From Verrucomicrobiaceae bacterium (GTDB lineage: Bacteria > Verrucomicrobiota > Verrucomicrobiia > Verrucomicrobiales > Verrucomicrobiaceae), in assembly GCA_016795365.1 (NCBI GenBank), contig JAEUHN010000004.1:248001-312000 (forward strand): DNA of 64,000 nt, read 5' to 3'. The notes beneath the pieces are model-generated. The model was not told the DNA's origin and ran no database searches. It was given only the letters and a program-made list of their open reading frames with translations. This document shows positions 36,845-42,269 of this stretch, piece by piece. Both the position numbers and the translations under genes were made by a program. Every line of letters starts with the position of its first letter. Position 1 is the stretch's first letter.

Positions 36845-36896
36845 ATTTGCAGGCATGTTCGGCGAAAAGGTATTTTCCTCTCCGCGTTTCAAGCAC

Positions 36897-38342
36897 ATGG
36901 CCCTCCTCCGAACCGTCATTTTCTTCTTCTCGGCATTCGTTACTTCATTCGCAGCGAAGCCCAACGTCTTGCTGATCATGACGGACGATCTGCGTCCTGA
37001 TCTCGGCTGCTACGGCGCGAAGCAGATTCACTCGCCGAACATCGACAAGCTTGCTGCAAGCGGGATGCTCTTCGAGCGCGCTTACTGTCAGGTGGCGGTG
37101 TGCAATTGCTCACGCAGCAGCTTGCTCAGTGGTTGTCGTCCAGACACGACGGGTGTGTTCGACAACCAGCACTTCCTTCGTCCGAACATGCCAGACGTAT
37201 TGACGCTGCCGCAGTTGTTCAAAAACAACGGCTGGCACTCGATGTCGCTCGGGAAGATTTTTCATCACAGCGAGAAGGAGCCGGGCGACGACCCGCAGTC
37301 GTGGAGCGAGCCGTCGTGGTATCACGCCGAAACTTATCGGAGCTGGTTCACGCAGGAGTCGAACGACATGATCAAGGGATTGAAGCAGAGCGGGTCGAAG
37401 CTCTCGCGTGGTCCGCCATTCGAGGCGTCGAACGAGCCGGATGATGTGTATCCCGACGGACAGATCGCGGCGAAGGCCATCGAGACGCTGCAACGATTGA
37501 AGACGATGGAGAAGCCATTCTTTCTCGGCGTTGGGTTCTTGAAGCCGCATCTGCCGTTCACGTGCCCGCAGAAATACTGGGATCTGTATCCGCCGGAGAC
37601 GATCAAGCTGCCGGACAATTACTTCCCGCCGAAGAACGTGCCCGAGCCCGCGATGCACAACTGGTATGAACTGCGCACCTACGGCGGCGTGCCGGCGAAG
37701 GGTGGCATCCCGGGTGCGATGGCACTGAATCTGATCCGCGGCTATCGCGCCTGCACGAGCTTCGTCGATGCACAGATCGGTCGCGTGCTCGATGAACTTG
37801 ATCGTCTCGGTTTGCGCGAGAACACCATCGTCGTGCTCCTCGGTGATCACGGTTATCACCTCGGCGAGAACGGCATCTTCACGAAGATGACCAACTTCGA
37901 ACTCGGCACGCACACGCCACTCATCGTCAGTGCTCCAGGACAGAAGGCCGGTCAGCGCACGAAGGCGCTCGTGGAGTTCGTGGACCTCTATCCGACGCTC
38001 GCGGAGCTGTGCGGCCTGTCGCTGCCGAAGCATCTCGAAGGCAAGAGCTTCGCACCGTTGTTCGACAAGCCCGAGCAAGCGTGGAAGCAGGCCGTGTTCA
38101 GCCAATACCTGCGCCCAGGCAAACCGCCCATCATGGGCCGCTCCATCCGCACGGAACAGTGGCGCTACACGGAATGGGTGAATGCAAAGAAGGAGTCTGC
38201 GGGAGTCGAACTCTATGACGAACAGGGCGACCCCGAGGAGAATGAGAACGTTGCCGGCGACGCGCGTCACGCCGCTGTCATCACGGAGCTGTCCCGGCGC
38301 TTGCACGAGGGATGGAAAGCTGCAACGCCACCCAGCCAATGA
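36897..38342 (+). CDS. Iduronate-2-sulfatase-like sulfatase with altered CNCSR active-site motif
   Basis: 481 residues from MALLRTVIFFFSAFVTSFAA, a signal peptide. Overall match to the iduronate-2-sulfatase group: VLLIMTDDLRPDLGCYG, IHSPNIDKLAASGMLFERAY, GCRPDTTGVFDN, GFLKPHLPFTCP, LLGDHGYHLGENG. The FGly site reads VAVCNCSRSSLLSG, so Cys-69 is present but the essential Pro of CxPxR is Cys-71. FGE recognition depends strongly on that Pro (Ala tolerated in some enzymes), so maturation is doubtful. The stop TGA overlaps the ATG of the next gene (ATGA), implying coupled translation. Confidence 0.93.
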   Translation: MALLRTVIFFFSAFVTSFAAKPNVLLIMTDDLRPDLGCYGAKQIHSPNIDKLAASGMLFERAYCQVAVCNCSRSSLLSGCRPDTTGVFDNQHFLRPNMPDVLTLPQLFKNNGWHSMSLGKIFHHSEKEPGDDPQSWSEPSWYHAETYRSWFTQESNDMIKGLKQSGSKLSRGPPFEASNEPDDVYPDGQIAAKAIETLQRLKTMEKPFFLGVGFLKPHLPFTCPQKYWDLYPPETIKLPDNYFPPKNVPEPAMHNWYELRTYGGVPAKGGIPGAMALNLIRGYRACTSFVDAQIGRVLDELDRLGLRENTIVVLLGDHGYHLGENGIFTKMTNFELGTHTPLIVSAPGQKAGQRTKALVEFVDLYPTLAELCGLSLPKHLEGKSFAPLFDKPEQAWKQAVFSQYLRPGKPPIMGRSIRTEQWRYTEWVNAKKESAGVELYDEQGDPEENENVAGDARHAAVITELSRRLHEGWKAATPPSQ

Positions 38343-39964
38343 ATCGCCGCTCCTTTCTCTCGTCCTCCGCTCAGACAGCGCTGATCGCTGCGACAGCATC
38401 TGGTGCCACAGAGCGCTCACGCAAAGCGCCCTTCCGCCTGCTCTACAGCAACGACACCACGAATATCATGTCCTGCATCAGCCCCTTTCATGCGAAGGGG
38501 GCGCCGTTCCGCAAGGAGATGCTGGAGGCGACGGTGGACGAAGTCGCGGGCAAGGGCGTGGACGCGCATCTGCTTCAGCCCGGGCTTGGCGTGGTGCCTA
38601 TGTGGCCGAGCAAGGTGCTGCCGCTCGACGAGCACTACGCGTGGATCAAGGAGCGCTACAAACAGAAGCCGGATTCGTTTGGCCAGTTCGTGCTTGATGG
38701 CGGCGATGTGGTGAAGGTCTTCATCGACCGTTGCCGTTTGCGCCAGCAGGCCGCGTTCATCTCGGTGCGCATGAACGACGCGCATCACAAGGAATTCGTG
38801 GACCCGAAGCCCGGAGACAAACCCGGTAGCAGCATCGGCATGAGCGTCACACGCTGGTATGCGGAGCATCCTGAGCATCGGATCAAACCAGGCTCGCTGC
38901 GTGGCGCTGATCTCGTGCTGAACTGGGCTGTGCCCGAGGTGCGCGCGCAGAAGCTCTCGCTCATCCGCGAGCTTTGCGAGAACTACGACATCGACGGCCT
39001 CGAGCTCGATTTCCTGCGCTTCTACAGCTTCTTCCGTCTAGACGAAACGACACGCGAGCAGCGCTGCGCCGTCATCACCGCCTTCGTGCGCGAGGTGCGT
39101 GATCTGGTGGATCGGACACAACGCGAGGGCCGTCGGCGCTGGCTATGCGCTCGCGTGCCTGCTTATCTTCCCGCGCTGGATGTGCTCGGGCTCGATCTCA
39201 GAGCGCTCGTCGCTGCGGGGCTCGACATGGTCAATGCGTCCGCGCACTACTACACCACGCAGCAGCAGCACCTCGCGGCGATCCGCAAGCAGTGCGAAGG
39301 GGCAGCGCTCTACTTTGAACTCTGCCACTCGACCTGGAACGGAGCCAAGCTGCGCGCGGGCTACGATGAAGCACCCTTCCGGCGTGCCACGCCAGAGCAA
39401 CTCCACACCACGGCGCACCTCGCCTATGCACGCGGCGCTGACGGCATGAGCCTCTTCAACTTCGCCTACTATCGCGAGCACGGAGGCGCGGGACGCGGGC
39501 CGTTTGCCGAGCCGCCGTTCGATGCGTTGAAAGGCTTGCGCGATCCCGCTGGGCTCGCCCAGCAGCCGCAACACTGGTTTATCGCGCCTGGCTGGCGGGC
39601 ACCGGGGGCCAAGCCGACCCAGGTGCCACGTGAGATCGACACGATGAAGCCAGCGAAGTTTGTGTTCGATCTCGCTCCGCCAAAGAACGGCTGGCAGCGA
39701 GATGGTCGGCTGCGCATCCAATTGCAAGCCGTGCAAGGCTTCAGCCACTGGTGGGCCACATGGAACGGAACGGCCCTCGCTCCCACGGATGACGTGTCGG
39801 AGCCCTTCGCCAATCCCTATCCGCCGATGCTTGGAACCGCTGAAACGCTGGTGGCTTGGACTGTGCCAGTCTCGTTGCTGCGAGCGGGTGTTCATCACCT
39901 CGAAATCACGCTGGAGTCGGGCGATGCAAATGTGATCAATTATGTCGATCTCGGCATCGCCTGA
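38339..39964 (+). CDS. Tat-exported TIM-barrel glycoside-hydrolase-like protein
   Basis: 541 residues starting at an ATG inside the stop of the preceding sulfatase (ATGA). N-terminus MNRRSFLSSSAQTALIAATA is a Tat signal. The next 400 residues look like a GH10-like/alpha-amylase-superfamily barrel: NYDIDGLELDFLRFYSFFR (acidic pair in a beta-strand end), DMVNASAHYYTTQQQH, YFELCHSTWNG, HLAYARGADGMSLFNFAYY. The last 120 residues form a beta-rich domain (HHLEITLESGDANVINYVDL). No exact family could be named. Coupling with the sulfatase suggests sequential desulfation and cleavage of one glycan. Confidence 0.75.
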   Translation: MNRRSFLSSSAQTALIAATASGATERSRKAPFRLLYSNDTTNIMSCISPFHAKGAPFRKEMLEATVDEVAGKGVDAHLLQPGLGVVPMWPSKVLPLDEHYAWIKERYKQKPDSFGQFVLDGGDVVKVFIDRCRLRQQAAFISVRMNDAHHKEFVDPKPGDKPGSSIGMSVTRWYAEHPEHRIKPGSLRGADLVLNWAVPEVRAQKLSLIRELCENYDIDGLELDFLRFYSFFRLDETTREQRCAVITAFVREVRDLVDRTQREGRRRWLCARVPAYLPALDVLGLDLRALVAAGLDMVNASAHYYTTQQQHLAAIRKQCEGAALYFELCHSTWNGAKLRAGYDEAPFRRATPEQLHTTAHLAYARGADGMSLFNFAYYREHGGAGRGPFAEPPFDALKGLRDPAGLAQQPQHWFIAPGWRAPGAKPTQVPREIDTMKPAKFVFDLAPPKNGWQRDGRLRIQLQAVQGFSHWWATWNGTALAPTDDVSEPFANPYPPMLGTAETLVAWTVPVSLLRAGVHHLEITLESGDANVINYVDLGIA

Positions 39965-39974
39965 CCTCTTTACC

Positions 39975-40829
39975 ATGAGACTGCTCGCTCTGTTCATCAC
40001 CCTCGCTGCCTTTTGTTCTTCGGCCCAAGCGGCTACGAAGAAGCTGAAGGTCTTCATCCTCGCCGGACAGTCGAACATGGAAGGCAAGGGCGATGGCAGC
40101 AAGCTCACGGCGGACGAGAAGGCCCGGCTGGCGAAGGCCGGACAGCATGTGCGGCTCGCCTACAACCATCAGCCCGTGGTGCCACTGAATGTGACGGACG
40201 CGGGCGCGGGGAACAAGAAGCGCTTCGGCATCGACTTGAGCTTTGGGCCTGAGTTGTTCTTTGGCCTCAAGCTCGCCGAGGCGTGGCCGGACGATGACAT
40301 CCTGCTGATCAAACGCTCGCAGGGGACCACGTCGCTTTACGGCGTCCGGAATCCGGAGTGGACCGCCGAGAAGGCCGCGAAGATGGGCGAGGAGAAGCTG
40401 GCGCCGCTGTATGCCGACCTGATCGCTTATGTGCGCGAGGTGCTGGGCGACAAGGACAAAGCTAGCTACGAGTTCTGCGGTGCGCTGTGGGTGCAAGGCG
40501 AGGCGGATGGCAATGTCTCCAAATGCGGTCCCTAACCCGCCGAAGCGTATGGTGCGAATGTGCAAAGTCTGATCACGCATCTTCGTCGCGATACGGGGGC
40601 GAGTGATCTGCCCTTTGTGATGATGCAAGTCGGCGCGCCCAAGGTGACCGAAGGCATGGAAGCCGCGACGAAGGCCATGAAGAACGTGGTGCTGGTGCCG
40701 CAGAGTCTTGATCCGGCAGCGCCGAACTTTCTGCCCAAGCACGCGGTTGGTCACTACAACTACGAAGGTCAGAAGCGCATCGGCTCCTTGATGGCGGAGG
40801 CGTTTTTGAAACTCCTGGCTCGGCGCTAA
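39975..40829 (+). pseudogene. SGNH sialate O-acetylesterase-like gene interrupted by in-frame TAA
   Basis: Signal peptide MRLLALFITLAAFCSSAQA, then FILAGQSNMEGKGDGSK (SGNH block I with nucleophile Ser), LSFGPELFFGLKLAEAWPDD and LWVQGEADGN. A TAA at 40533-40535 stops translation after 186 codons, but the same frame continues as PAEAYGANVQSLITHLRRDT and ends with FLPKHAVGHYNYEGQKRIG, the block V region with the catalytic His. Ignoring the TAA gives 284 residues, normal for the DUF303 esterase family. The truncated product would lack the catalytic Asp/His. A single base change explains the stop. Removes acetyl groups from sugars if functional. Confidence 0.82.
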
Positions 40830-40892: not shown

Positions 40893-42269
40893 ATGAAACT
40901 CACGGCCCTGCTTTTCTCTCTCCTGGCGATCTTCTTCACGGCCACCGCCGCTGAAACCAAGAAGCCCAACATCATCTTCATGCTCGCGGATGATCTCGGC
41001 ATTCCGGGCATCGGTTGCTACGGCGGCGCTTACAAGACACCGAACATCGATGCGCTCGCGAAGTCGGGCACACGCTTCCAGCATTGCTTCGCGGCTCCGC
41101 TGCGCGCACCCTCGCGTGCGATGCTGATGACCGGACGCTATGCTTTTCGCACCGGTGTCAAAGACAACGGACTCGGCGCGCAAGCGACGCCGGACAAAGA
41201 TGGTTGCGTGGCTCAATACCTGAAGCAGGCAGGCTACAGCACAGCGGTGGCGGGGAAGTGGCGTCAGCTCACTTACTTCACGTCCAAGGAAGACGGTGCA
41301 AAGTGGGGCTTCGATGAGTTCCTCATCTGGGGCGCGGGCTCGCCTGAGGAAGGCGAGAGCGAGGGCAAGAAAAAGAAGAAGGACGCCGACGGCAACAAGT
41401 CGAAGCCGGATCGCTACTGGAACCCGGACTACAATCTCAATGGCAAGCCGCTGCCCGATTCAGAGGGCAAGTATGGCCCGGATGTGCTGCAGCAGTTCGT
41501 GCTCGACTTTGTGCGCCGTCACAAGGAGGGGCCGTTTTTTGTCTATTACCCGACGCCGTTGATTCACGTGCCCATCATGCCTACGCCTGATGACAAGGCG
41601 GCCGATGACAAGAAGATGAAGGGCAAGAAGGAGAAAGGCAAAGCCACCGACGAGTCGCTCTACGGCGGCAACATCCACTACCTCGACAAGCTCGTGGGCC
41701 AGCTCACTGCCGAACTCGACAAGCTGGGCATTCGTGAGAACACACTCTTTGTGTTCAGTGGCGACAACGGCAGCGTGCCGGTGGGCACCATTGACGGTCG
41801 CGACATCGAAGGCCACAAGCACACGATGCTGGAAGGCGGCAGTCGCGTGCCGCTCATCGCGAGTTGGCCGGGCACCACCCCGTCGGGCAAAGTGCTCAAG
41901 GACCTCGTCGATTTCTCCGACATGCTACCGACCTTCTGCGAACTCGGCGACGCGACACCCAATCCTGCGATCAAGCGCGATGGTCACAGCTTTGCCGCAC
42001 AACTGCGTGGTCAAACGGGCACGCCGCGCGAGTGGGCTTACGTTCAGCTTGGCTCGAATCGCTATGTGCGCACTGAGCGCTGGAAATTGACCGGCGAAGG
42101 CGAACTCTTCGATATGCGCGACGCTCCGTATGTGCAGTCACGCCGCGACCCCGAGAGCGCGGACGAAGACGCCACGACTGCGCGCAAAACGCTGCAAGGT
42201 GTGCTCGATTCGCTCAAGGACGACAGCGTGAAAGACGCGCCGAAGAAGCGGAAGAAGAAGACGAAGTGA
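40893..42269 (+). CDS. Sulfatase lacking the formylglycine cysteine (RAPSR)
   Basis: 458 residues with signal peptide MKLTALLFSLLAIFFTATAA. Overall arylsulfatase-A-like: IIFMLADDLGIPGIGCYGG, TPNIDALAKSGTRFQHCF, AVAGKWRQLTYF, FVFSGDNGSVPVG, VPLIASWPGTTPSGK. At the active site it reads APLRAPSRAMLMTGRYAFRTG in outline: the position of the FGly-forming Cys is Arg-71 (codon CGC at 41103-41105), while the rest of CxPSR is kept. A TGC-to-CGC transition would account for it. Without Cys or Ser the enzyme cannot form formylglycine. A Lys-rich insertion lies at residues 155-175 and the C-terminus is Lys-rich. Confidence 0.93.
   Translation: MKLTALLFSLLAIFFTATAAETKKPNIIFMLADDLGIPGIGCYGGAYKTPNIDALAKSGTRFQHCFAAPLRAPSRAMLMTGRYAFRTGVKDNGLGAQATPDKDGCVAQYLKQAGYSTAVAGKWRQLTYFTSKEDGAKWGFDEFLIWGAGSPEEGESEGKKKKKDADGNKSKPDRYWNPDYNLNGKPLPDSEGKYGPDVLQQFVLDFVRRHKEGPFFVYYPTPLIHVPIMPTPDDKAADDKKMKGKKEKGKATDESLYGGNIHYLDKLVGQLTAELDKLGIRENTLFVFSGDNGSVPVGTIDGRDIEGHKHTMLEGGSRVPLIASWPGTTPSGKVLKDLVDFSDMLPTFCELGDATPNPAIKRDGHSFAAQLRGQTGTPREWAYVQLGSNRYVRTERWKLTGEGELFDMRDAPYVQSRRDPESADEDATTARKTLQGVLDSLKDDSVKDAPKKRKKKTK

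Follow-up and report, generated by a model that had tools for sequence, protein, structure and literature searches.

The gene at 40893–42269, on the forward strand of the window (the whole stretch of 64,000 nucleotides of Verrucomicrobiaceae DNA analysed here), raises the question of what to make of a protein that looks in nearly every respect like an ordinary secreted sulfatase, but that carries arginine at the position of the catalytic cysteine. Such a gene may be an enzyme recently lost, a binding protein, a new kind of enzyme, or an active sulfatase disguised by a wrong base. Its own sequence, the genes beside it and the sulfatases of its relatives were considered together.

Sequence and predicted structure of the sulfatase

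The encoded protein, of 458 amino acids, is assigned as a secreted S1 (formylglycine-type) sulfatase by its Pfam match (PF00884, 5.6e-45) and by its AlphaFold2 model. It has a signal-peptide-like start, and the match covers positions 1–299 of the 301 of the profile, that is, the full domain. Codon and translation agree that CGC at 41103–41105 (forward strand) encodes Arg71, giving R-A-P-S-R at the place where S1 sulfatases have C-x-P-S-R, as the sequence-only reading had claimed, and the clade alignment puts this codon in the column of the catalytic Cys. The Arg71 column is the formylglycine Cys in all relatives, so that the true Cys is not displaced to another position. Only Cys or Ser can be converted to formylglycine (PMC5066984, PMC10154612), in agreement with the earlier claim that type I sulfatases need one of the two, and a SulfAtlas survey of 4058 sequences reports just Cys (78.9%) or Ser (21.1%) (PMC5066984). 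Within the C/S-x-P/A-x-R motif required for conversion, the protein studied here offers neither.

The remaining active-site residues, D33, D34, R75, K122, H225, D291, N292 and K309, are all kept; D33, D34, R75, H225, D291, N292 and K309 correspond to D13, D14, R55, H211, D317, N318 and K375 of AtsA and are invariant in the alignment. The earlier statement that every other sulfatase block is conserved holds for these residues and fails for GKWH, which reads GKWR owing to Arg124 (codon CGT, 41262–41264, forward strand). The His of this block is the proposed elimination base in AtsA. This His (AtsA H115) is 81% conserved in SulfAtlas (PMC5066984). Among 25 distinct rows of the clade, the position is occupied by Arg in 10, Ser in 7, Gly in 5 and Asn, Gln and His in one each, so that 24 of the 25 lack His, all of which except the window protein retain the Cys. 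Since the replacement is common to nearly the whole clade, Arg124 is ancestral and unrelated to Arg71, and it was rejected as a second hit in the gene. As an observation in its own right, this Verrucomicrobia sulfatase clade (L032–L065) is characterized by GKW[R/S/G]Q replacing GKWH (window positions 41253–41267), while its pocket, the Cys included, is otherwise retained.

The AlphaFold2 model, computed with the clade alignment, is confident, with a mean pLDDT of 85 and a pTM of 0.87. Residue 71 lies at the start of a helix spanning 71–80, which is where sulfatases hold formylglycine. The best PDB matches of the model are all S1 sulfatases (TM ~0.7): carrageenan sulfatases of S1_19 and human arylsulfatase A. 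Fold, signal peptide and metal- and sulfate-site residues are common to the window protein and to S1 sulfatases in general (PF00884, SulfAtlas S1). Compared with the closest solved structures, the carrageenan sulfatases PsS1_19B (6psm, 6prm) and Ps i-CgsB (6bia, 6b0j), at ~28% identity, the window protein has Arg for the formylglycine Cys and Arg for the GKWH His. Since formylglycine arises only from Cys or Ser, the Arg71 protein should fold without turnover; judged from its sequence, the product should be folded and exported and should not hydrolyse sulfate esters.

A partial parallel is offered by nine Lentisphaerae and Planctomycetes sequences inferred to be inactive in SulfAtlas, in which Ile or Leu replaces Arg55 (PMC5066984). 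Like the window protein, they have lost a catalytic residue of CxPSR in an otherwise normal S1 sequence, but there it is the motif Arg in nine sequences, and here the Cys in a single one. A literature search found no papers on pseudosulfatases, nor on Arg replacement in human iduronate-2-sulfatase.

Conservation of the catalytic cysteine

The window protein belongs to a Verrucomicrobia clade with GKWxQ, whose members are 66–70% (L061, L062, L063/L032), ~54% (L033, L064, L065) or, for tandem paralogues, ~48% identical to it. They share its architecture, GKW[RSG] and 48 of 49 invariant columns, whereas Arg for Cys is confined to the window protein. In all 24 other distinct members the codon is one for Cys (TGC in 15, TGT in 9), which is compatible with the proposed one-base step from TGC to CGC. 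The same column holds Cys in every one of the 100 sulfatase rows of other genomes that could be aligned, as well as in every formylglycine-type sulfatase found in the organism's own genome, with the gene at 40893–42269 as the sole exception; four further rows of that genome have Thr in the column and appear to belong elsewhere in the alkaline phosphatase superfamily. The check on whether Arg is conserved in homologues, suggested by the sequence-only reading, thus came out negative down to the closest relatives. The loci read, from 289 genomes within the order, 68 within the family and the GTDB species contigs, contained no conserved Arg subgroup, nor was a second genome carrying this locus found.

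With the nearest relatives only 66–70% identical, the window sulfatase sits on a long branch. At the 49 columns invariant among 26 relatives, it departs at one, the Cys, and is unchanged at 48. Its pairwise dN/dS values against relatives, 0.17–0.22, are the same as those between pairs of intact relatives, although they are rough (NG86, with dS of ~1.1–1.5). Its branch length (0.33) equals that of the intact L062 (0.34), and in relative-rate tests the gene evolved faster than L061 and L063, and not clearly faster than L062. A rough neutral bound, based on the chance of keeping 48 of 48 invariant codons under full neutrality, limits any unconstrained period to at most ~4–6% of the branch. As read from these comparisons, the gene shows purifying selection, which together with the invariant columns kept indicates that Arg71 would be either very recent or a base error. 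Arg71, private to this sequence and set in a gene otherwise kept by purifying selection, has the pattern of a recent inactivation. By contrast, the loss of a catalytic residue shared by orthologues, which defines a conserved pseudoenzyme, is not seen, all orthologues having the Cys.

The upstream acetylesterase gene and the gene run

A second anomaly, absent from the sequence-only reading, lies just upstream. The gene at 39942–40829 (forward strand) encodes a SASA-type (SGNH) carbohydrate acetylesterase and is interrupted by an in-frame TAA at 40533–40535: positions 2–226 of the PF03629 profile match across this one internal stop, and alignments with relatives from other Verrucomicrobiota continue before and after it. 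The gene ends 63 bases upstream of the sulfatase gene on the same strand, from which spacing and orientation the two probably form one transcription unit. The TAA and the Arg71 codon are 570 bases apart.

A codon-usage scan for stops inside coding sequence, applied to the whole contig of 367,867 bases with a sensitivity in long open reading frames of ~40%, returned four candidates, of which the TAA at 40533–40535 is the only clear nonsense codon. The other three were rejected as nonsense lesions and read as ordinary gene ends, with the start of the next gene following immediately. Given that 570 bases to each side span 0.3% of the contig, the proximity of the stop and Arg71 makes a shared cause probable, be it decay of the gene pair or a local problem of assembly quality. 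The stop bears directly on the choice among readings of Arg71.

The S1 sulfatase at 36855–38342 (forward strand; open reading frame and orthologue alignment) is intact and healthy, with two conservative departures at 182 columns. In its motif, C-N-C-S-R (near 37100), Cys replaces the Pro that follows the formylglycine Cys. The same replacement occurs in L191, an orthologue of 84% identity from another genus, for which reason it was rejected as a further lesion; all the more distant relatives that were read keep Pro or carry Ala there. The forward-strand gene at 38312–39964, just upstream of the acetylesterase gene, encodes a family-wide conserved protein with intact frame and no Pfam match. 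Of 212 invariant columns, 13 are changed in this copy, against 0–19 in other members, and a second copy is present in the same genome (G000:C1:202540-204114). Altogether, the run contains BNR-repeat sialidase-like proteins, three sulfatases and a sialate-type acetylesterase, contents that would fit the stripping of a sulfated, acetylated glycan.

Regarding maturation, this genome, 97% complete, contains more than 80 Cys-type sulfatases. By motif scan, none of the PF03781 proteins inspected (L080–L091, L238–L249) has the Cys pair of the canonical formylglycine-generating enzyme, and no anSME match in the genome scores as high as the TIGR03942 cut-off.

Explanations for Arg71

On balance, we favour the explanation that an ordinary S1 sulfatase has recently been inactivated within a decaying esterase-sulfatase gene pair. 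The exported enzyme would have been active until recently, and a single base change would have cost it its nucleophile. This loss would belong with the TAA 570 bases upstream; the acetylesterase and sulfatase genes, which probably served together to trim a glycan bearing sulfate and acetyl groups, would now be at the start of their decay. Weighing against decay of the sulfatase gene itself are its intact reading frame and the fact that no second lesion is seen in it.

A substantial, if clearly less probable, alternative is that the base at 41103 is a base-call, consensus or strain-mixing error, as the stop at 40533 would probably be too, in a part of this fragmented assembly where coverage would be poor; the real gene would then be an ordinary, active Cys-type sulfatase. 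In the sequence itself, a recent loss and a consensus error would be indistinguishable, and errors would likewise cluster locally. The departure from clade invariants at Arg71 only, under otherwise normal constraint, is what an error would leave, and two single-base anomalies within 570 bases, on a contig with no other clear nonsense codon found, fit a local dip in quality in an assembly of 55 contigs, 97.2% completeness and 1.45% contamination. On the other hand, no internal stop was seen in any of the genome's 87 matches to PF00884, so that the overall error rate is low, and the sulfatase gene is free of frameshifts.

A binding-only pseudoenzyme, in which Arg71 would make the sulfate pocket lectin-like for a sulfated glycan and be kept by selection, appears quite improbable. 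The fold and all other pocket residues are retained, and Cys-to-Ser sulfatase mutants do bind substrate in crystals (6psm, PsS1_19B C77S with kappa-neocarrabiose). Nonetheless, Arg is found in no relative, even at 66–70% identity, purely catalytic residues are unchanged too, and the adjoining acetylesterase gene is also broken. The related proposal that Arg71 is real and selected, making a secreted sulfate-glycan binder in which Arg71, Arg75 and Arg124 grip sulfate without cleavage, seems about as improbable. Activity without formylglycine, by way of another nucleophile or water, is scarcely credible: the one point in its favour is the intact state of the other active-site residues, whereas Arg is no nucleophile, Arg71 would occupy the helix start (helix 71–80 of the model) that holds formylglycine, and the literature treats formylglycine from Cys or Ser as required.

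Among the three options set out in the sequence-only reading, namely a dead protein, a binding-only pseudoenzyme and a wrong base, recent loss and base error are therefore left, while a conserved pseudoenzyme is disfavoured since no homologue has Arg.

Implications

The gene at 40893–42269 looks less like a novel type of enzyme than like an ordinary gene that was recently lost, or one altered by a base error. Automatic annotation would label it an active sulfatase, and it should be left out of the sulfatase count. If the base is real, the locus would document that sulfatase-rich Verrucomicrobia turn over sulfatases by loss, here through the joint failure of an esterase and the adjoining sulfatase.
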